From Planobacterium oryzisoli (GTDB lineage: Bacteria > Bacteroidota > Bacteroidia > Flavobacteriales > Weeksellaceae), in assembly GCF_015354315.1 (NCBI RefSeq), contig NZ_JADKYY010000008.1:1-64000 (forward strand): a stretch of 64,000 nucleotides of DNA, written 5' to 3'. The first letter of the stretch is position 1. Every line of letters starts with the position of its first letter. Shown here in pieces: positions 2,582-26,119 of this stretch. Under the pieces are notes generated by a model. It had not been told where the DNA came from. It searched no databases and worked only from the letters and a program-made list of their open reading frames with translations. Position numbers and translations under genes: made by a program.

Positions 2582-2992
2582 ATGTGTTCGGTCTCAGATA
2601 AAATTGTCTTGTGCACCTGCAAAGTTTCAAATGTTGAAAATTTGAAGCATTATTGGATGCTGTTCCGGTATAATCCCGAAAAAGGAGAAATAATTGTGGG
2701 ACAGCCTATTTCTTGGGAAACGCTCCTTCAAATTAACAATCCCGATAATCCCAAGATACTTTTGAAGAAGCTTAACGAACAGAATATTTTTGACAAACCA
2801 CTTGAGTTTTTTGAAAAGGACAGATTGCTGATTTCGGTTCAGTTTAGAGAGAATGAGTGCCGGACTGACTACGGTTTTGAGTATAAAAAAGGCAAATGGA
2901 AAATTAAGGAATTTGATTATTTCGGATGGATGGCAGAACATTATGAATTTAAAGAAGGAAAAATAGAAAACGCTGTAGTAAGAGGAAAATGA
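2582..2992 (+). CDS. Uncharacterised protein in the restriction operon
   Basis: A 136-residue soluble protein of unknown family. It starts 2 nt after the hsdR stop and overlaps the next gene by 4 nt (ATGA), so it is translated as part of the operon. It is rich in charged and aromatic residues, with a repeated pattern of short beta-like segments and no signal peptide or membrane segment. The residues around 85-115 (EYKKGKWKIKEFDYFGW) are strikingly aromatic and lysine-rich. No catalytic motif was recognised. It is AT-rich like the two genes after it, which suggests that the three entered the operon as cargo. That it is a real gene is well supported by tight packing. Confidence 0.75.
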   Translation: MCSVSDKIVLCTCKVSNVENLKHYWMLFRYNPEKGEIIVGQPISWETLLQINNPDNPKILLKKLNEQNIFDKPLEFFEKDRLLISVQFRENECRTDYGFEYKKGKWKIKEFDYFGWMAEHYEFKEGKIENAVVRGK

Positions 2993-3543
2993 TTGATATA
3001 AAAAATGCTGCAAAAAGTTACATCGAAAATCTTACAGCAACATTAGAAAGGGTTGCCAAATATTCAGAAGGCATATCTTTTCAAAAAATAAAGTTAGACT
3101 TCGTTGACTACCAAGAATCCCATTTAAAAATATTGGATAAAAGCAACGGTATTTATATGATTGCCTTATCTGAAAATTGCAGTATAAAACCTGAAAAAAT
3201 TTGCAGCAAGGTAAATTCGTTTAAGAAAAATAAAAGGAAATACAAATTTCCAAAAGTTAATGAGAAAAATTGTGTAGGTGAAAACAGAATTCTTTACATA
3301 GGTAAATCCAAAGGGAATATGAAGAAAAGGATTGAGGCTCATCTAGGTCTTGCAAACCCTTCAACTTATGCCTTACAGTTGAAATTTTGGGGAGAAGACA
3401 ATTATCTGAAAGATGCGAAACTTGAAATTCATTACGCGTTTGTAGAGATGCCCGATGAAGACATTGAAACCGATATACTGGAAATTCTCGAAACCGCCTT
3501 ACACAAAAATTATAAACCAATGCTCGGAAGAAGCGGGCATTAA
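2989..3543 (+). CDS. GIY-YIG domain protein
   Basis: A 184-residue protein whose central and C-terminal parts carry the GIY-YIG nuclease signature: GIY at 54-56, YIG at 103-105 within ILYIGKS, a candidate catalytic arginine in KKRIEAH (R114), and a C-terminal glutamate region ending in a P-x-x-GRSGH tail. The spacing between GIY and YIG is unusually long, about 47 residues against about 10 in most members, because of a lysine-rich insert. The family cleaves DNA with a single metal ion. Here it could be an accessory nuclease of the restriction operon, though the activity is untested. It overlaps the preceding gene by 4 nt and is followed by a nuclease-fold gene after 19 nt. Confidence 0.7.
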   Translation: MIDIKNAAKSYIENLTATLERVAKYSEGISFQKIKLDFVDYQESHLKILDKSNGIYMIALSENCSIKPEKICSKVNSFKKNKRKYKFPKVNEKNCVGENRILYIGKSKGNMKKRIEAHLGLANPSTYALQLKFWGEDNYLKDAKLEIHYAFVEMPDEDIETDILEILETALHKNYKPMLGRSGH

Positions 3544-3562
3544 ATATGTTTAAACTCAGAAA

Positions 3563-4615
3563 ATGAAAGTAGCAGAAAAATCATCTTTACATTTTATTAA
3601 ATATGAAAAAATGCTTCTCAATTTTAGAAAAATAAATAAAATTGAAGTAAATGCACCAACCTATATGGAAATTGCAGGCTACCCACATTTTGAAAATGTT
3701 AGTAGCAATATCCTGAGTTTTTTCCTGAATACAAATCAAAAACATAAGCTAAATGATTTGGTTCTAAAATCTCTTTTGCAATGCATTGAAGGATTTGATG
3801 AAACAGCCTATCGGTTAAAAACTAATAATATCTATAGGGAATATGGTATCAGCAACTTAAAGCGTATTGATATTCTTGTCGAATGCCCTGAGATGTGCGT
3901 TAGTATTGAAAATAAAATATTTCATTGGTTACACAACGATTTAGAAATTTACGAAGCTGATATTAATAGAAAATTCTTTGGTAACAAAACTTTTCATGTT
4001 GTTTTGTCATTAAAGAAAGAAAACGTTATAGGAAGTTTCGTAAGTATAACTTATGAAGAATTTTTTGAAAAAGTTAAAAGTAACTTAGGTCAATACATCT
4101 TAAAAGGAGAAAGCAACTATCTTGCTTTTTTACTGGATTACATGAAAACTATTGAAAATCATTTCAAAATGGAAGAGATCAACAAAGAGATGTTTGCTTT
4201 TCTAATGGACAATTCAGAAACTATAACTGAACTACAAAACGAGAAAGTGAAACTGGAAAACAGCCTCTATAGAACTGTAAACCAATTAAGTCAAAGAATT
4301 AATTTTGAAGATCCATTGGTTAAAGTTTGGCGATATGAACGTTATGTAATTGTTTATGATTTCCTTATAGAAGATTCAAAGATTGCCGTTGATATTAACG
4401 TCGATTATGATAAACTAACTGTAGATATTTTTGAAAGAGGGAGAAGCAGCAATAACGAAGTCTTAAGTAAGACACAGCTTATCAAAAATTACAGTTTTGC
4501 AAGGAATCATCGTGGTTATGTCCTTTTAAATGAAAGTAAAAACTTTTTTGATTTAAATTTAGATGAAGTTGCAGAAACAATACATAACTATCTAACTCAA
4601 ATAAAAATCTCATGA
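3563..4615 (+). CDS. PD-(D/E)XK nuclease family protein (PDDEXK_4-like)
   Basis: A 350-residue protein with a restriction-endonuclease-like core. A helix containing HFENVSSNILSFFL (42-55) is followed by the catalytic pattern D103 in RIDILVE and E116-N-K118 in SIENKI. This layout resembles the PDDEXK_4 family often found in defence islands. The C-terminal half (about 210-350) has a short coiled-coil stretch and an uncharacterised beta-rich part. The last 4 nt overlap the hsdM start, so translation is coupled to the methylase gene. It may cut DNA independently of HsdR or be a control factor; the sequence does not decide. It is AT-rich compared with hsdM directly after it. Confidence 0.7.
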   Translation: MKVAEKSSLHFIKYEKMLLNFRKINKIEVNAPTYMEIAGYPHFENVSSNILSFFLNTNQKHKLNDLVLKSLLQCIEGFDETAYRLKTNNIYREYGISNLKRIDILVECPEMCVSIENKIFHWLHNDLEIYEADINRKFFGNKTFHVVLSLKKENVIGSFVSITYEEFFEKVKSNLGQYILKGESNYLAFLLDYMKTIENHFKMEEINKEMFAFLMDNSETITELQNEKVKLENSLYRTVNQLSQRINFEDPLVKVWRYERYVIVYDFLIEDSKIAVDINVDYDKLTVDIFERGRSSNNEVLSKTQLIKNYSFARNHRGYVLLNESKNFFDLNLDEVAETIHNYLTQIKIS

Positions 4616-6060
4616 GCATATCCGGAGTTTTAGAATCCATCAGAAAAATCATGTGGCAGGACAGTGGCCTGAACGGTGATGCACAGCGGCTGGAACAGCT
4701 GGGCTGGATGCTTTTCCTGAAAGTGTTCTGCGACAAAGATCAGGAGCTGGAACTGATGCAGGAAAATTACGAATCGCCCATTCCCGCAGAATTCCGTTGG
4801 GAAAACTGGGCAGCAGATGATGAAGGTTTAACCGGCGACGAACTGCTGGAATTTATCGACCGAAAACTTTTTCCGGCACTGCGCGACATCGACTTAAGCA
4901 CCGGAAATCAGCGTGCCGTGATTGTGCATGAGGTTTTTTCCGGCAACAACAATTATATGAAAAGCGGCATCAACATTCGCAAAGTGCTGAACAAACTCAA
5001 CGAGATTGATTTCAACTCGTCTAAAGACCGCCACGATTTTGGTGATATCTACGAAACTTTGCTCAAAGATTTGCAGAGCGCCGGAAAATCGGGAGAATTT
5101 TACACGCCGAGAGCCATTACGCAGTTCATCACCAAAATGATCGATCCCAAACTCGGCGAAAAAGTGCTGGATCCGGCTTGTGGAACCGGCGGTTATCTTA
5201 CCGGCGTTATCGAACATCTTTCGGCACAGGTGAAAAGCGTGGAAGACCACAAAATTCTGCAGGAAAGTATCAAAGGGTGGGAATACAAACCACTGCCTTA
5301 CCTTTTGGCAACCACCAATTTAATTCTGCACGATATTGAAGTTCCGGACATTACGTACCGCGATTCTCTCGATCAGCCTTTATCGCAATACCGCGAAATT
5401 GACCGTGTGGATATTATTGAAGCCAATCCGCCATTTGGAGGAATTGTGGCGAACAGCAACGAAAATAATTTTCCGCAGAGTTACCGCACCAAGGAATCGG
5501 CGGATCTGTTTCTTATTCTCATGATTCATCTTTTAAAAGTGGGCGGAAGAGCCGGAATTGTTTTGCCCGACGGTTCGCTTACCGGCGACGGTGTGAAAAT
5601 GCGGGTGCGCGAAAAACTGTTGAAAGACTGCCGACTTCATACCATTATCCGCTTACCGAACTCCGTGTTTCAGCCGTATGCAACCGTGGCTACGAATCTG
5701 CTGTTTTTCGAAAAACTGCACCACAACAACGAGACTGCAGGTTTTGCCACGCAGGAAGTCTGGTATTACGAACACCGTTTGCCGGAAGGACAAAAATCTT
5801 ACAGCAAAACCAAACCCATCCGAGAAGAAGAGTTTGAACCGATAAAACAATGGTGGAACAACCGCACCGAAAGTGACATCTGCTGGAAAGTTGATATTGA
5901 AACTTTGAAAGCCCGCAATTTTGATTTGGACATTAAAAACCCGAACAAAACCGAGGAAACTATAGAACATACTTCTGCTGAACTGATGCAGAAACTGTCG
6001 GATTCTTTCCATAAATCTGAAGATTTGCTGGCGAAACTTAAAATGGCTACAGCAGAATGA
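4612..6060 (+). CDS. hsdM: Type I restriction-modification DNA methyltransferase (HsdM)
   Basis: N6-adenine methyltransferase subunit that pairs with HsdS to protect host DNA and with HsdR to restrict foreign DNA. The N-terminal HsdM_N helical domain covers about residues 5-130. The SAM-binding motif DPACGTGG lies at 187-194 and the catalytic NPPF motif at 272-275. The 482-residue length suits the type IB group. It overlaps the upstream nuclease gene and the downstream hsdS gene by 4 nt each. Base composition is clearly more GC-rich than the cargo genes 5' of it, so the core methylase and the inserted genes probably have different histories. Confidence 0.96.
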   Translation: MSISGVLESIRKIMWQDSGLNGDAQRLEQLGWMLFLKVFCDKDQELELMQENYESPIPAEFRWENWAADDEGLTGDELLEFIDRKLFPALRDIDLSTGNQRAVIVHEVFSGNNNYMKSGINIRKVLNKLNEIDFNSSKDRHDFGDIYETLLKDLQSAGKSGEFYTPRAITQFITKMIDPKLGEKVLDPACGTGGYLTGVIEHLSAQVKSVEDHKILQESIKGWEYKPLPYLLATTNLILHDIEVPDITYRDSLDQPLSQYREIDRVDIIEANPPFGGIVANSNENNFPQSYRTKESADLFLILMIHLLKVGGRAGIVLPDGSLTGDGVKMRVREKLLKDCRLHTIIRLPNSVFQPYATVATNLLFFEKLHHNNETAGFATQEVWYYEHRLPEGQKSYSKTKPIREEEFEPIKQWWNNRTESDICWKVDIETLKARNFDLDIKNPNKTEETIEHTSAELMQKLSDSFHKSEDLLAKLKMATAE

Positions 6061-7583
6061 GTAGAGGCAGAAAAATCACAATTAATTCTGAAATAGATAA
6101 ATCGCAAAAACTGTTTTTTGAAAATGTAGGTTTTTATATGTCGATTATCAATAAAGAACTTGGAAAAAAGTATTCTCCCGAACCATTAGCAAATTTCATA
6201 AAGATTGCAGGTGGATTCGCATTTAAAACCTCTTCTTATAAAAAAAGCGGAATTCCTATCATAAGGATTTCTGATTTTAACAACGAAAGAATTGATTTGT
6301 CTTCCTGTGTTTTTTATGATGAAGATGCATCTCTACAAAAATTTTTACTAGAAGAAGGAGATATCATTATTTGCTTGACAGGTGGAACTATTGCAAAACT
6401 TGGAATTGTTCAAGGCGGTCTTGGGAAGATTTATTTAAATCAGCGTGTCGGAAAGTTTGAAGTTCTTGATGAAAATATTTTTGAGAAAGAATATGTTTAC
6501 TGGCTTGCAAAAAGTGTTGCCAATACAATAAAAAACTTGGCTTGGGGTGCTGCAATTCCCAATGTAAGTCCAAAACAGATTGAAAAAATTAAAGTTTCTA
6601 TTCCTCCGAAAGACATTCAGATTGGGATTATTTCTTTTCTGAACGATTTGAAAAATGAAGATTTTAAGAGGGAATTTTATTTTGACCCTGAAATCGAAAA
6701 GCATATTTTAGATTTACACGAAAGTTCTAAAACTACCAATATTCTCTCCTATGAACTCACGCACCAACTATCCCTGATTTCCCAACTTAGGCAAGCTTTT
6801 CTTCGCGAGGCAATGCAGGGCACTTTGGTAAGCAACGAAACTTCCGACGGCAAAACCGGCGCAGATTTACTGGCGGAAATAAAAGCCAAGAAAGAACAAC
6901 TTATCAAAGACAAAAAAATAAAAAAAGGGAAACAGCTTCCGCCAATTTCCGAAGAAGAAATTCCTTTTGAGATACCGGAAGAATTGTCTTTTATTCGCCT
7001 TGGGGAAATTTGTAAGGTTGAAAAGGGTAAAATTGGCATTCAAAGAGCAGAGAAATCTGGAAGTATTCCACTTGTTGTGACTAGTGAAGAAAGACAATCT
7101 CACAATGAAATTCATTTTGACGGACCTAGTGTAATAATTCCTTTAGTTTCGAGCACAGGGCATGGACATGCCAGTATGAAACGAATTCATTATCAGGAAG
7201 GCTCGTTTGCAGTTGGAAATATTTTGGGCTGTATTCAAACATACCTTCCTGCATTTTTTAATATGAAATTTTTGTTTCATTATCTAGATACTTATAAACA
7301 AACATTCTTTGTTGAAAAAATGAAGGGAGCAGCAAATGTTTCTTTAAAACTTTCATCCATTGAAGAAACGCCGATTCCTTTGATCAGAAAAGAGATTCAA
7401 GATAAATATGAAGAACTTATTTTGCATTTAGAAAATCTCGAAGCCTCGGTAAAAGAAAGCCAAAACTATAATGCCCAACTGCTGCAACAGGTGTTGAGAG
7501 AAGCGCTGGAAGGGAAGGAGGAAAGAAAAGAAGTGTTGACTTTGGTGGCGGAAGATGAGTTAAAGTACAATACTCAAACATAA
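6057..7583 (+). CDS. hsdS: Type I restriction specificity subunit (HsdS)
   Basis: Sequence-recognition subunit. Two target-recognition domains are visible: the first around residues 40-190, with a typical TRD start (FIKIAGGFAFKTSSY), and the second around 315-480 (FIRLGEICKVEKGKIG). Between them lies the conserved central spacer LRQAFLREAMQGTL and the PPISEEEIPFEIPEELSF segment (about 240-315). A second conserved repeat (about 465-495, AQLLQQVLREALEGKEE) closes the protein. Both recognition domains are AT-rich, whereas the conserved spacer is closer in composition to hsdM. This is the usual sign of domain exchange between specificity genes. The target sequence cannot be predicted here. Confidence 0.94.
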   Translation: MSRGRKITINSEIDKSQKLFFENVGFYMSIINKELGKKYSPEPLANFIKIAGGFAFKTSSYKKSGIPIIRISDFNNERIDLSSCVFYDEDASLQKFLLEEGDIIICLTGGTIAKLGIVQGGLGKIYLNQRVGKFEVLDENIFEKEYVYWLAKSVANTIKNLAWGAAIPNVSPKQIEKIKVSIPPKDIQIGIISFLNDLKNEDFKREFYFDPEIEKHILDLHESSKTTNILSYELTHQLSLISQLRQAFLREAMQGTLVSNETSDGKTGADLLAEIKAKKEQLIKDKKIKKGKQLPPISEEEIPFEIPEELSFIRLGEICKVEKGKIGIQRAEKSGSIPLVVTSEERQSHNEIHFDGPSVIIPLVSSTGHGHASMKRIHYQEGSFAVGNILGCIQTYLPAFFNMKFLFHYLDTYKQTFFVEKMKGAANVSLKLSSIEETPIPLIRKEIQDKYEELILHLENLEASVKESQNYNAQLLQQVLREALEGKEERKEVLTLVAEDELKYNTQT

Positions 7584-7610: not shown

Positions 7611-9035
7611 ATGGATATATTTGGTGATAAAAAGAGTAAACAAATAGAATATTTGGAGGAAGAAAGAAAAAAACTGTGGCAAAGAATTACTGCTCTTGAA
7701 AATGAAGATAAAAGACTCCAAACAGAAATTAACAAAAAAGCAACTGATGCGGAAAAAGAGGCCGCACAAAGTTCTAGGAAAGCGGCAGAATACAGAAATA
7801 AAACTGAGCAAAGAGCGACAGAAGCAAACGATTTTGTTGTTACAATTCAGGCAAAAGTTGATGAAGCTGAAAGATTGCTTGCAAGTATTGGAGAAAAGAA
7901 TGATAAAGCAACAGAATTAAAAACAATATTAGAAACAAATGAGGAAGGATATAAATTGTCGTATGATGAGTTAATTTTAAAAGTAAATACTCTAAACTCT
8001 TTTCTGGAAGATTATCCTGACCTAGATTCTAAATTAACTGTCATAAGCGATTTTGTTTCTGGCGTTGAAGATAATCTTGGAAAATCAAAACTTAGTTTAA
8101 CAGCATTAAATAAAACGAAGAAGGAAATTGATGATTTTCACCGTGATATCTTTGGCTACATCGATAAGGATGATGCAGGTGATGAAATCGTTATCGAAGG
8201 AAAGAAAAGCGATCTGGATGAAGCTTATGAAGATTTACATGAAAAACTTGAGCAAGCAAACAATAGAATAACAACTATTACAGATTCTTATAAAAAGAAA
8301 TATGACGAATTCGAAATCAGCCACAAATCAAATTATGAGAAAATAAATAACGAAATTGAAAGCCTACTTCCGGCAGCTTTAACAGCGGGATTGAGTTCCG
8401 CATTTTCTACAAAGAAAGGAGAAGAAGCAGAAAATTCCCAACAGCTGCAAAGTCGCTTTTCAATGGGAATTTATATGTTGATAGTGGTCAGCTTGCTTCC
8501 TTTCGCTGTCAGTGTATATTTTCTTTACACCGGAACTGCACTTGAAGAGGTCATTAGTAAGATACCAAGATTAGTCTTAGCAATCATCCCGATGTATATT
8601 CCTGTGCTTTGGTTCACATATTCCGCAAACAAAAAACTTAATTTATCAAAAAGATTAATTGAAGAATACGCTCACAAAGAAGTACTAAGTAAAACTTATG
8701 AAGGACTGTCTAAACAAATTGCTAATCTTGAAGATGAAGAGCAAACAAGTGAACTCAAATACCGGCTTTTATCTAGTTTCTTACAAGTGACATCAGAGAA
8801 TCCGGGTAAATTAATTTCAAATTATGAAGCTTCCGATCATCCTGTTATGGAAGCTTTAGAACAAAGTTATAAATTTCAACTTGCAATTGATAAATTAGAA
8901 GGTATTCCTGGTATGGGCAAGGTTGCTGCAATCTTGGAATCAAGCTCAAAACGAAAATTAAAGGAGAAGCAAGAGATCATAGATAGAGCTTTAGGTGCGA
9001 ACGAAGAGGAAGAGGAGGAAGAGGAAGAAGCATAA
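7611..9035 (+). CDS. Coiled-coil membrane protein of the restriction island
   Basis: A 474-residue protein. Residues about 5-260 form a long, highly charged coiled coil. A segment LLPAALTAGLSSAF resembles a motif seen in other coiled-coil membrane proteins. Two membrane helices follow, at about 285-308 and 319-339, joined by a short loop, and then a second helical region. The C-terminus is a run of glutamates (GANEEEEEEEEEA) encoded by an impure GAA/GAG tract. No enzymatic motif is visible. It starts 27 nt after hsdS on the same strand and so is likely cotranscribed. A role as membrane-anchored sensor or effector of the island is only inference. Confidence 0.75.
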   Translation: MDIFGDKKSKQIEYLEEERKKLWQRITALENEDKRLQTEINKKATDAEKEAAQSSRKAAEYRNKTEQRATEANDFVVTIQAKVDEAERLLASIGEKNDKATELKTILETNEEGYKLSYDELILKVNTLNSFLEDYPDLDSKLTVISDFVSGVEDNLGKSKLSLTALNKTKKEIDDFHRDIFGYIDKDDAGDEIVIEGKKSDLDEAYEDLHEKLEQANNRITTITDSYKKKYDEFEISHKSNYEKINNEIESLLPAALTAGLSSAFSTKKGEEAENSQQLQSRFSMGIYMLIVVSLLPFAVSVYFLYTGTALEEVISKIPRLVLAIIPMYIPVLWFTYSANKKLNLSKRLIEEYAHKEVLSKTYEGLSKQIANLEDEEQTSELKYRLLSSFLQVTSENPGKLISNYEASDHPVMEALEQSYKFQLAIDKLEGIPGMGKVAAILESSSKRKLKEKQEIIDRALGANEEEEEEEEEA

Positions 9036-9050
9036 TCGAACATTTGATTT

Positions 9051-9395
9051 ATGAAATATGAACTATCAGAAAAATCCTCAAACTTATCCTCCGAAAAACT
9101 CTGGCTAAAAATCTGCGGCAGCCTTGTAGATAAAGCAGAAATATATTCACTTACCGGAAAAGTATATCAACTTATGGATGTTTCTTATGCTGAGATTATT
9201 TATTCTTCTCCCTCAAGAAATAACGGTGAGCCGGAAAGTATTTTGAGCGAAGATTGTATTGCATTTCTGGAAATTCTGAAACAGCAGAATTCGTTCAGCA
9301 CAGCTTCAATAAAAGAACTATTGCCAAGTGTTATTTATAGAAAAAGGTCGCCGCTGTTTGCTTTCTTAATTGCAGCAGGATTAATGTCAGAATAA
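9051..9395 (+). CDS. Uncharacterised small protein ending the restriction operon
   Basis: A 114-residue soluble protein starting 15 nt after the coiled-coil gene. The C-terminal part (about 70-114) could form a small winged-helix-like bundle (LKQQNSFSTASIKELLP), but the similarity is weak and no family is recognised. There is no signal peptide or membrane segment. It is the last gene before an 83-nt gap that holds the promoter and palindrome of the next cassette, so it probably belongs to the hsd transcription unit. Confidence 0.6.
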   Translation: MKYELSEKSSNLSSEKLWLKICGSLVDKAEIYSLTGKVYQLMDVSYAEIIYSSPSRNNGEPESILSEDCIAFLEILKQQNSFSTASIKELLPSVIYRKRSPLFAFLIAAGLMSE

Positions 9396-9403
9396 CCTAT
9401 TTC

Positions 9404-9430
9404 TTGTTTTGAATTTTATTGCTATTTTTG
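9404..9430 (+). promoter_or_regulatory. Predicted promoter of the toxin-antitoxin-chaperone cassette
   Basis: TATTTTTG at 9423-9430 fits the Bacteroidota -7 consensus TAnnTTTG, and a TTG lies at 9404-9406, 16 nt upstream. Transcription would start near 9436, at the left edge of the 22-bp palindrome. Confidence 0.5.
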
Positions 9431-9435
9431 TTCAT

Positions 9436-9457
9436 AAATTAACATATATGTTAATTT
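9436..9457. promoter_or_regulatory. Perfect 22-bp palindrome, candidate antitoxin operator
   Basis: Left half AAATTAACATA (9436-9446) is exactly complementary to the right half (9447-9457). It lies 21 nt before the toxin start codon and overlaps the predicted transcription start. This is the standard placement of an autoregulatory site bound by the DNA-binding antitoxin of a type II module. Confidence 0.65.
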
Positions 9458-9478
9458 TTTTTTGTTTTTTAAATTTAT

Positions 9479-10000
9479 ATGAGTAACTTTGCACTAGAAA
9501 TTTTTGATGACGAAAGTCCAAAATGTCAGTTTTACACAGTAAAACTGGATGGTGAAGAACTCTCAGAAACCGATAAATTTTTTGAGAAACATTATGAAAC
9601 AGATAGGTTAAAACCATACGTTCAGCAATTATCGGTATTTATTTCAGATACCATTGGAACAAAAAGAGGAGCGATCAATGATTTTTTTAGGGAAGAACGA
9701 AAAGCTCAGGCGTTTCCACCACCTGCAAAAATTGAAATTGAGGAAGTAGATTTTGGAGAAGACTTCCCGCTACGTTTGTATTGTATGCGCCTATCATCTT
9801 CCTGTGTTATTTTGTTTAACGGCGGCGAAAAAACAAGTTGGACGGCTCAGGATGGAGAAACGAAAGTAGCTTTCAGAGAGGCAAATCACTACGCTGATAA
9901 AATACAGATGGCCTTAAATAACGGAGATATTAAACTCTGCGCAAAAAAGAGAGAAATTCTTGATACAACTACAGAAAAACCTTACACCGAATTATTCTAA
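9479..10000 (+). CDS. Putative RelE/HigB-like toxin of a TAC module
   Basis: A 173-residue protein, first gene of the cassette. Residues about 92-120 read FPLRLYCMRLSSSCVILFNGG, like the central strands of RelE/HigB-superfamily toxins, where an R-L-Y strand is followed by a strand and a glycine turn. A helical segment FREANHYADKIQMALNNG (132-149) follows. RelE-type toxins are usually 90-120 residues; the extra N-terminal 70 or so residues here are unusual. The stop codon touches the antitoxin start, giving strict coupling. In this superfamily the toxin cleaves mRNA at the ribosome. The assignment rests on the motif plus the antitoxin and chaperone neighbours, and an unrelated toxin fold is not excluded. 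Confidence 0.6.
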   Translation: MSNFALEIFDDESPKCQFYTVKLDGEELSETDKFFEKHYETDRLKPYVQQLSVFISDTIGTKRGAINDFFREERKAQAFPPPAKIEIEEVDFGEDFPLRLYCMRLSSSCVILFNGGEKTSWTAQDGETKVAFREANHYADKIQMALNNGDIKLCAKKREILDTTTEKPYTELF

Positions 10001-10390
10001 ATGAAAAGCAAAATTTTTAAAAAGATTTTAGACGAAACACCATTGGAAACTAAAATCTTTGTGGAAAAATATTCCGATCTAATTATCCGGATCAATCAGA
10101 TTCTTAGAGATAAGGGAATTTCTCAAAAAGAACTTGCTGAAGGAATGGATAAAAAACCTGCGGAAATCAGCCGATGGCTTAGCGGAAATCAAAACATTAC
10201 CCTAAAAAGCATTGCCAAACTGGAAGCAGAATTGGGAGAGCCTATTATCGAAATTCCGGTGAAGCGTTTTTCTGCGTGCTTTAAAGACGAATGGGAAAAA
10301 CTTGAAGTAAGTTTCACCGTTGAACGACGTAAAGAAACTTATTCTAAAGATACACAATGGTTAAATGAGGAAAAAGTAAGATATGCCTAA
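10001..10390 (+). CDS. XRE-family antitoxin with C-terminal extension (HigA-like)
   Basis: A 129-residue DNA-binding protein. The helix-turn-helix spans about residues 28-78, with ISQKELAEGMDKKPAEISRW as core. An extension of about 45 residues (85-129) goes beyond the usual HigA-type length and is rich in aromatics (F90, F94, W99, F105, Y114, W120, Y128). In TAC systems a C-terminal chaperone-addiction tail makes the antitoxin unstable unless a SecB-like chaperone binds it, and this extension is a good candidate. It begins directly after the toxin stop and overlaps the chaperone gene by 8 nt. It probably represses its own operon through the palindrome at 9436-9457. Confidence 0.8.
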   Translation: MKSKIFKKILDETPLETKIFVEKYSDLIIRINQILRDKGISQKELAEGMDKKPAEISRWLSGNQNITLKSIAKLEAELGEPIIEIPVKRFSACFKDEWEKLEVSFTVERRKETYSKDTQWLNEEKVRYA

Positions 10391-10811
10391 CCCTTTTGAT
10401 GCTGAAAAATTGGCTTTAGAGTCGTTTAAAATTATCAGCGAAAATATTTTTGTACCCGAATTTTTTGATGAAAGTCTAATTAAAGAATTTGGTTCTACAA
10501 ACCAGCTCAGTATTTCTTTCAATCTGGAGCAGAAGTTGATCAGGGCGGAATTTGATTTTGAAATTTTAACCAACTCTGAATCTTCGGAAGAAGCCAAAGC
10601 AAATTACAAATTTGTTCTCATTTACAGTTGTTCAAATCTGGAGGAACTTGCACATGCCGATGGAGATGAGCTTAAAGTGAATTCACAGTTAGGTTTTGCA
10701 ATCTCTGCCATTTCCTATTCAACCATTAGAGGAATTTTACTGATAAAACTTAGCGAGACGGTATTTCAGGATTTTATTTTGCCAATTATAAAACCTAATC
10801 TCCCAAATTAG
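10383..10811 (+). CDS. SecB-like chaperone of a toxin-antitoxin-chaperone system
   Basis: A 142-residue protein that resembles SecB in size and layout: N-terminal strands (FNLEQKLIRAEFDFEIL, YKFVLIYSCS), then a YSTIRGILLIKLSE helix and an FILPIIKP end. The end matches the SecB pattern of a Y-x-x-(A/I)-R helix followed by a proline-rich segment. Canonical SecB assists export in Proteobacteria and is usually absent as an export factor in Bacteroidota, so a solitary copy behind an antitoxin points to a dedicated TAC chaperone. The start overlaps the antitoxin end by 8 nt. Identity is inferred from pattern and context and needs a profile search. Confidence 0.65.
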   Translation: MPNPFDAEKLALESFKIISENIFVPEFFDESLIKEFGSTNQLSISFNLEQKLIRAEFDFEILTNSESSEEAKANYKFVLIYSCSNLEELAHADGDELKVNSQLGFAISAISYSTIRGILLIKLSETVFQDFILPIIKPNLPN

Positions 10812-10822
10812 TTCATACAAAA

Positions 10823-10842
10823 AGAGCAGCCTCCGCTGCTCT
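10823..10842 (+). terminator. Terminator of the TAC cassette
   Basis: AGAGCAGC (10823-10830) and GCTGCTCT (10835-10842) form a perfect 8-bp stem with a CTCC loop, 12 nt after the chaperone stop. A pyrimidine-rich stretch with T runs follows. Confidence 0.7.
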
Positions 10843-11250
<408 letters not shown>

Positions 11251-11330
11251 CGCCAAAAGCGATGCCCTTGAAAACTATATTTCGTCGGCCAAACTGTCCC
11301 TGGCAGGTTGCTCCTCATCAGAGCCTGATT

Positions 11331-11508
11331 CCGTTCTAAATAACTGTAGTTCAGAGTTAATAGACATATATTCTGCGGTGAGGTTGAGTGCCACAAGTTC
11401 CAAATCAGACATTTTTGGAAGCCTAATTTGCTTACTTGCAGTAATATATTTACAGGTGTGTGTCAATTCTTTTAAAATAATTTTGTAGTTTTGAATAAGA
11501 TTGTTCAT
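11331..11508 (-). pseudogene. IS982-family transposase fragment (N-terminus)
   Basis: The minus-strand frame starting at 11,508 encodes about 57 residues typical of the N-terminus of IS982-family transposases in this lineage (TASKQIRLPKMSDLELVALN followed by TAEYMSINSELQLF). The match stops after LQLFR and the rest is missing or out of frame. No DDE catalytic core is visible. It is a relic that marks the right side of the island. Terminal repeats were not identified. Confidence 0.65.
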
Positions 11509-24727: not shown

Positions 24728-26119
24728 ATGAACTACGATATCATTGTTGTCGGGAGTGGTCCCGGAGGTTACGTAACTGCAATCAGAGCATCGCAGCTGG
24801 GTTTTAAGACCGCTATTATAGAAAAGGAAAACCTAGGAGGTATCTGCCTTAACTGGGGATGTATTCCTACTAAGGCGCTTTTAAAATCAGCACACGTGTT
24901 TCATTATCTGAACCATGCCGAGGAGTACGGACTCAATAAGGTGGAAAACCCAGGGTTCGATTTCTCAAAAGTTATTCAGAGAAGCCGCGGGGTAGCCACT
25001 AAGATGAGCGGGGGTATTTCGTTTTTGATGAAGAAAAACAAAATCGACGTAGTGATGGGTGAGGCTAAGGTGAAGCCCGGCAAGAAAGTGCAGGTAACCG
25101 ATAAAGACGGAAAAGTATCTGAACTATCTGCCTCCCATATCATCATCGCTACCGGTGCACGTTCCAGAGAGCTTCCTAACCTTCCTCAGGACGGAAAGAA
25201 AGTAATTGGATACCGCCAGGCACTTTCTCTTGCAGAGCAGCCAAAAAGCATGATCGTAGTGGGCTCTGGCGCCATTGGCGTGGAGTTCGCAGATTTCTAT
25301 AACACGATGGGTACAAAGGTGACGGTAGTGGAGTTCATGCCAAACATCGTTCCTGTAGAGGACGAGGAAATCTCTAAGCACCTTGAGAAATCCCTTAAAA
25401 AAGCAGGTATCAATATCATGACTTCTTCCTCTGTGGAAAGCGTGGATACCAGTGGTGAGGGCGTAAAAGCCAGTGTGAAAACCAAGGACGGAATGGTAAC
25501 CTTAGAGGCCGATATCCTTCTCTCCGCAGTGGGTATTACGGCTAACATTGAAAATATAGGACTAGAAGAAACAGGAATTAAGACCGACAAAGGTCGCGTG
25601 CTGGTAAACGAATGGTACGAGACCAGTGTTCCGGGATACTACGCCATTGGTGATATCATCCCGACCCAGGCACTTGCCCACGTGGCTTCTGCCGAAGGGA
25701 TCACCTGCGTAGAGAAAATCAAAGGAATCCACACCGAAAAAATCGACTACGGAAATATCCCGGGATGTACCTACTGCGCCCCTGAAATTGCCTCCGTGGG
25801 TCTTACCGAGAAACAGGCTAAGGAGAAAGGCTACGAGATTAAGGTAGGTAAATTTCCGCTCTCGGCCAGTGGTAAAGCTACGGCCAACGGGAACACCGAC
25901 GGGTTCATCAAAGTAGTCTTTGATGCCAAATACGGAGAATGGCTCGGATGCCATATGATCGGAGAAGGCGTAACGGATATGATCGCTGAGGCAGTGGTAG
26001 CTAGAAAATTAGAGACTACGGGGCATGAAATCATTAAATCCATTCACCCGCACCCAACGGTCTCTGAGGCGATCATGGAGGCGGTGGCCGCAGCATACGG
26101 AGAAGTTATCCATATCTAA
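24728..26119 (+). CDS. lpdA: Dihydrolipoyl dehydrogenase (E3)
   Basis: FAD flavoprotein that reoxidises the lipoyl arm of 2-oxoacid dehydrogenase or glycine cleavage complexes with NAD. The FAD-binding GSGPGGY is at the N-terminus, the redox disulfide is C40/C45 in GGICLNWGCIPT, the NAD-binding GSGAIGVE lies near 180, and the C-terminal catalytic histidine-glutamate is in HPHPTVSEAIMEA. All 463 residues align with the family. It lies 191 nt after the fused E1 gene. Confidence 0.97.
   Translation: MNYDIIVVGSGPGGYVTAIRASQLGFKTAIIEKENLGGICLNWGCIPTKALLKSAHVFHYLNHAEEYGLNKVENPGFDFSKVIQRSRGVATKMSGGISFLMKKNKIDVVMGEAKVKPGKKVQVTDKDGKVSELSASHIIIATGARSRELPNLPQDGKKVIGYRQALSLAEQPKSMIVVGSGAIGVEFADFYNTMGTKVTVVEFMPNIVPVEDEEISKHLEKSLKKAGINIMTSSSVESVDTSGEGVKASVKTKDGMVTLEADILLSAVGITANIENIGLEETGIKTDKGRVLVNEWYETSVPGYYAIGDIIPTQALAHVASAEGITCVEKIKGIHTEKIDYGNIPGCTYCAPEIASVGLTEKQAKEKGYEIKVGKFPLSASGKATANGNTDGFIKVVFDAKYGEWLGCHMIGEGVTDMIAEAVVARKLETTGHEIIKSIHPHPTVSEAIMEAVAAAYGEVIHI

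Follow-up and report, generated by a model that had tools for sequence, protein, structure and literature searches.

A probable chaperone-dependent toxin–antitoxin module beside a type I restriction system in Planobacterium oryzisoli

Toxin–antitoxin–chaperone (TAC) modules are among the few defence systems with an understood trigger, namely phage structural proteins that draw the chaperone away from the antitoxin. Unless its tail is held by the chaperone, the antitoxin aggregates or undergoes degradation, and the toxin is released when a competitor engages the chaperone (PMC5105189, PMC6377645, PMC11618068). This competitor is the T4 capsid protein for CmdTAC (PMC11618068) and the lambda major tail protein for HigBAC (PMC11980606). 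The characterized TACs that we found in the literature come from Mycobacterium tuberculosis and Proteobacteria. Here we analysed 64,000 nucleotides of DNA from the Bacteroidota bacterium Planobacterium oryzisoli (contig NZ_JADKYY010000008.1, positions 1 to 64,000; hereafter the window), in which an initial annotation had proposed a TAC module beside a type I restriction system. Given the gene order, the SecB fold, an antitoxin tail that tracks the chaperone, a conserved operator and the defence-locus context, we consider it likely that the three genes form a chaperone-dependent toxin–antitoxin module. TACs as a type are known, and this family has already been listed computationally as a defence candidate, PDC-M64; new are the reading of PDC-M64 as a TAC, the correlation between tail and chaperone, the operator, the association of one chaperone family with multiple toxins and the linkage to restriction–modification (R-M) and BREX loci.

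All three open reading frames (ORFs) are on the forward strand and inside the span first assigned to the module (9404–10842), which extends a little beyond the genes. The toxin gene (9479–10000; 173 amino acids) begins 83 nt downstream of an ORF at 9051–9395 that itself lies behind the type I restriction operon. Its TAA stop codon (9998–10000) abuts the ATG of the antitoxin gene (10001–10390; 129 amino acids) with no gap, and the antitoxin gene overlaps that of the SecB-like chaperone (10383–10811; 142 amino acids) by 8 nt (10383–10390), exactly as first described. The proposed TAC order of toxin, antitoxin and chaperone is borne out by the same trio in dozens of Bacteroidota genomes, and this recurrence indicates that the arrangement is not due to chance. 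Pfam recognized only the helix-turn-helix (HTH) of the second gene (HTH_3, 7e-10), an XRE-type domain; searches of Pfam, NCBIfam and PHROGs gave no useful match for the toxin or the chaperone, and a sequence search of the PDB returned no relatives. By contrast, all three proteins match PADLOC models of PDC-M64 and thus belong to the same family: the toxin matches PDC-M64B (3e-39), the antitoxin PDC-M64C (1.7e-35, residues 1–88 only) and the chaperone also PDC-M64C (3e-18). Among the papers searched, none mentions PDC-M64, and neither a test nor a TAC interpretation of it was found.

The chaperone was modelled with AlphaFold2 (AF2) from an alignment of 53 sequences (A1; pLDDT 92.3, pTM 0.84), and the model comprises four long strands, a hairpin and a long C-terminal helix. 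In a Foldseek search of the PDB, the best four matches are all four chains of 5MTW—M. tuberculosis Rv1957 bound to the HigA1 chaperone-addiction peptide—with probability 1.00, E-values of 6.4e-6 to 6e-5 and TM-scores of about 0.6 (0.65 for the best). Matches 5–18 are 14 chains of SecB from Escherichia coli or Haemophilus influenzae. The third protein is thus predicted to have the SecB fold, and its sequence link to SecB is faint: the window protein has no match to the Pfam SecB model (PF02556), which matched 2 of the 53 family members (best 2e-7), and a profile of the family placed SecB first among PDB entries at E 0.29, in an alignment that is colinear from residue 1. The original assignment as SecB-like therefore stands at the level of the structure match, first to 5MTW and then to SecB, and fails at the level of a PF02556 sequence match.

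The closest counterpart is the M. tuberculosis TAC (HigB1–HigA1–Rv1957), which shares the gene order, an XRE antitoxin with a tail of similar length and a SecB-fold chaperone, Rv1957 (5MTW) being the best structural match of the window chaperone. The two modules differ in that their chaperones are 8–10% identical in structural alignment, the window toxin belongs to a different family that lacks a Pfam model, and the window module has a Bacteroidota host and a defence-locus context. Two E. coli C496 modules, HigBAC and MqsRAC, are likewise three-gene TACs with SecB-like chaperones, their toxins being HigB or MqsR; phage protection and triggering have been shown for them. CmdTAC (PD-T4-9) also combines a chaperone-dependent antitoxin, with a reported C terminus of LAA, and a SecB-like chaperone, but CmdT is an mRNA ADP-ribosyltransferase, whereas the window toxin is predicted to have a RelE/HigB-like fold and the window antitoxin is of the XRE type.

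For the toxin, an AF2 model built from 27 sequences (alignment A2; pLDDT 88.8, pTM 0.86) gave 142 Foldseek matches in the PDB, the best 11 of which are all HigB/ParE-type toxins. The top match is Streptococcus pneumoniae HigB (6AF4; probability 0.97, target TM 0.64, E 0.07). All of the E-values are at least 0.07, above the usual significance limit, so the RelE/HigB-like fold of the initial annotation, although favoured by the top structural matches, is probable and not proven. Residues F70, R99, G115 and K118 are invariant across the 27 sequences, and, in a comparison of spacing only, R99 and K118 lie 19 residues apart, the distance that also separates the catalytic R73 and K92 of S. pneumoniae HigB. 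R77 and K95 of the M. tuberculosis TAC toxin HigB are 18 apart (PMC9098466). Profile comparison of the toxin with the HigB and Gp49-like toxins of sister TACs gave nothing convincing. The same chaperone family is also linked in other genomes to HigB toxins (PF09907, 2e-19 and 1.5e-20) and to a Gp49-type toxin (PF05973, 1e-7), which is consistent with a RelE/HigB context. Two other candidate identities were set aside: a TPR protein that was the best PDB match of the toxin profile (0.004), as the match was split by a long gap, and a CmdT-like ADP-ribosyltransferase, none of which is among the structural matches listed.

The antitoxin extends 46 residues past its HTH domain (codons at approximately 10250–10387, forward strand), a tail that we consider a candidate chaperone-addiction domain (ChAD) with a putative degron-bearing end. 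The match of the antitoxin to the family model PDLC04760 stops at residue 88, early in this tail. The tail had been described as aromatic-rich and 45 residues long; one residue more was measured, and the aromatic enrichment is real but modest, with 7 of 46 residues (15%) being F, W or Y in the window and 10.9% in tails across the family compared with 6.1% in the rest of the antitoxin. Among 63 distinct chaperone-linked antitoxins, the protein continues for 22–143 residues past the HTH domain (median of 56). In five genomes, relatives with the same toxin family and no chaperone (L107, L108, L109, L110 and L123) have an antitoxin that ends 9–20 residues past this domain (median of 11). The two ranges do not overlap (Mann–Whitney p=2e-4, a value that overstates independence because the sequences are related), and the C-terminal extension is thus absent where the chaperone is absent. 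The M. tuberculosis ChAD region measures 141 bp, and the known ChAD coding regions of 141 and 126 nt are similar in length to the tails of this family (PMC5105189). One chaperone-linked antitoxin, at L066, is 238 amino acids long and has a tail of 143 residues, far longer than a typical ChAD.

These pairs bear on the alternative that the first two genes are an ordinary HigBA-like pair and the SecB-like gene follows by chance and is unneeded for neutralization. The five chaperone-less relatives are close and presumably work, as this explanation would have it. All five lack the tail, however, whereas 63 of 63 chaperone-linked antitoxins have it, and chance is hard to square with genes that overlap by 8 nt and a trio that recurs across the phylum; we therefore regard a plain two-gene pair as extremely unlikely. 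The TAC reading gains independent support from the presence of the tail with the chaperone and its absence without it, and from related chaperones that sit with recognized HigB (PF09907) and Gp49/HigB-like (PF05973) toxins. Together with the SecB fold and the toxin-type fold matches, this upholds the interpretation first given to the locus.

The C termini of chaperone-linked antitoxins are also enriched in alanine. Alanine is the last residue in 27 of 63, compared with 4.2 in shuffled tails, and Ala-Ala ends 17 of 63, compared with 0.3; the window antitoxin itself ends in ...KVRYA, that is, YA and not AA. Judged by sequence, such ends resemble a ClpXP degron, and an LAA end and ClpP-dependent degradation have been reported for CmdA (PMC11618068).

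Upstream of the module, a 22-bp perfect palindrome AAATTAACATATATGTTAATTT (9436–9457), 21 bp before the toxin start, is the probable operator of the XRE antitoxin. With up to one mismatch allowed, its 16-bp core has no second site anywhere in the genome. A family motif, AACNTATANGTT, is found between −70 and +20 at 13 of 59 related toxin starts, and these loci carry it at no other position; at ≤1 mismatch, it is found at 39 of 59 starts (0.29 expected). The whole 2.1-Mb genome contains only five sites. The other 20 of the 59 starts have no site at ≤1 mismatch, and the operator is thus not common to every locus. As it is present in loci both with and without the chaperone, the operator belongs to the toxin–antitoxin pair. 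Repression by the antitoxin at the palindrome is the natural reading and is probable from the sequence. Just upstream, TATTTTTG (9423–9430, forward strand), as read directly, may be a −7 promoter box, for which the Bacteroidota consensus is TAnnTTTG.

The family is more widespread than the initial annotation assumed when it called a Bacteroidota version less described: 77 of 396 Bacteroidota genomes contain a match to the chaperone model, and PADLOC already lists the system as PDC-M64. Within the family of the window organism the model matches 13 of 120 genomes, and in 14 control genomes it has no match; the toxin was found in 17 of 398 genomes of the order. A search of genome contigs with the single toxin sequence returned only one near-identical locus, in a metagenome-assembled genome. 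The module had no match in phage records and one partial match in plasmid records, from Hymenobacter. One chaperone family serves several toxin families: at eight loci (L010, L020, L021, L031, L060, L075, L092 and L096) it lies behind toxins that are unrelated in sequence to that of the window and that include HigB (PF09907), Gp49-like and several without any Pfam match.

Some copies of the chaperone stand alone. We found 27 SecB-like chaperones without toxin–antitoxin genes (L023, L025, L054, L058, L059, L065, L069, L072, L073, L077–L079, L083–L086, L089–L091, L093, L097–L099, L101, L102, L104 and L106), all from one family (f18) and mainly from one genus (g61), where about 25 of 61 genomes carry them with partly conserved neighbours. 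They form a single clade with 100/100 support, nested among TAC chaperones in a tree that is midpoint-rooted only. On this sequence evidence, the f18 gene looks like a TAC chaperone turned independent gene.

An export-sentinel model, first proposed for the M. tuberculosis TAC, is discussed in PMC4257090, and a module that senses general proteotoxic or export stress rather than phages is an alternative here. The whole genome has no match to PF02556, and hence no canonical SecB by that model, so the window chaperone could be the only SecB-type protein of the cell. The module is nevertheless accessory—the chaperone is absent from a genome of the same genus (G757)—and sits in defence loci, which would suit a housekeeping stress sensor poorly, and we consider this explanation quite unlikely.

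The restriction neighbour named at the outset is present, with HsdR, HsdM and HsdS ORFs upstream on the forward strand: an HsdR-like subunit assigned from sequence (207–2579), HsdM (4612–6060; PF02384, N6_Mtase, 4e-70) and HsdS (6057–7583; PF01420, Methylase_S, 8e-24). To place this in context, we compared ten TAC flanks (80 ORFs), a small, non-random sample picked for long contigs, with control stretches from the same genomes (91 ORFs): the flanks matched 197 PADLOC families at 1e-20, mostly type I R-M, compared with 20 families and no restriction genes in the controls. Direct neighbours were typed by Pfam scans, because many divergent R-M genes escaped an iterated sequence search with the window HsdR, HsdM and HsdS. 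Type I R-M genes directly adjoin the TAC at 5 of the 10 loci: HsdR does so at L132, L134, L136 and L139, and at L135 the TAC lies between hsdS and hsdR. The neighbour is BrxL at one locus (L131), an AAA_15/AbiEii-like ATPase at L137 and a ResIII-type helicase at L138; the scan recognized no defence neighbour at L133 and L140.

A placement inside or beside hsd genes raises the prospect that the module guards the R-M system, with the toxin firing when the R-M complex is inhibited. PrrC in EcoprrI follows a comparable guard logic for a restriction system, and the loci with hsdR alongside (L132, L134, L136 and L139) or with the TAC between hsdS and hsdR (L135) would fit. Relatives of the chaperone are, however, also found away from R-M (L133 and L140) or standing alone, the data call for no second trigger beyond the chaperone, and nothing indicates physical coupling; such a guard is very unlikely.

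Another genus of the same family offers a direct comparison. In G760, the stretch corresponding to 9412–11335 of the window is 96.6% identical in DNA, whereas a housekeeping gene (24728–26116) is 77% identical. Beside that TAC, hsdR (87%) and hsdM (93%) are also similar, and hsdS is largely different, with only short matches. From these identities and the absence of the chaperone in G757, the module has probably spread horizontally in recent times, with R-M and TAC travelling together. The TAC follows hsdS directly in G760, which lacks the window ORFs at 7611–9395, a difference that sets the TAC apart as a unit of its own. Those two ORFs encode a 474-amino-acid coiled-coil protein that seems to have membrane segments and a 114-amino-acid protein, neither of which has a significant family match (Pfam, PADLOC and further family-model searches); they are possibly an independent accessory defence unit. 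Between hsdR and hsdM, three ORFs in the window (2582–4615) correspond to one ORF of 538 amino acids in G760 (L171:2516–4132), and, with flanks that are 87–93% identical, this gap reads as an exchangeable slot inside the R-M operon. In the G760 toxin copy (L165:583–1103), a T run has lost one base and the reading frame is shifted, which may be decay or a sequencing error, and the other two genes are intact; an active toxin may thus not always be kept.

Such apparent co-spread of R-M and TAC (HsdR 87%, HsdM 93% and TAC 96.6%, compared with 77% for housekeeping DNA in the other genus), and the repeated adjacency of TAC modules to hsd genes, would also be expected if the module had been selected for addiction, that is, for maintenance of the R-M cassette rather than phage sensing, with loss of the cassette killing the cell through loss of antitoxin and chaperone. 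Linkage to defence genes fits addiction and phage sensing alike, however; the cassette is still present in G760 although its toxin is broken, and known TACs that were tested against phages do protect. We regard addiction as possible but rather doubtful as the selected role.

A role against phages is the reading that we moderately favour. By analogy with characterized TACs, the XRE antitoxin would bind and neutralize an mRNA-cleaving toxin of RelE/HigB fold, and its HTH domain would repress the operon at the palindrome at 9436–9457. The 46-residue tail would act as a chaperone-addiction domain, leaving the antitoxin unstable through Clp-type proteolysis unless the SecB-like chaperone holds it. 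A phage structural protein that occupied the chaperone would then cause loss of the antitoxin, the toxin would block translation and the infection would abort. Toxicity, RNA cleavage, chaperone dependence, proteolysis and phage triggering are all inferred by this analogy. This abortive response would back up the neighbouring type I restriction system as a second line. More tentatively, type I restriction and BREX operons of Bacteroidota might repeatedly incorporate TACs as an integral second layer, the R-M genes and TAC co-spreading in a single cassette whose specificity and accessory genes can be swapped; the toxin, under chaperone control, would kill cells in which a phage had got past the restriction barrier or disabled it. 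We hold this broader proposal to be conceivable but somewhat improbable. Because these modules recur next to or within type I R-M and BREX operons, layered defence becomes testable, and the evolution of chaperone addiction can be tested directly on matched natural pairs that have or lack chaperone and tail.
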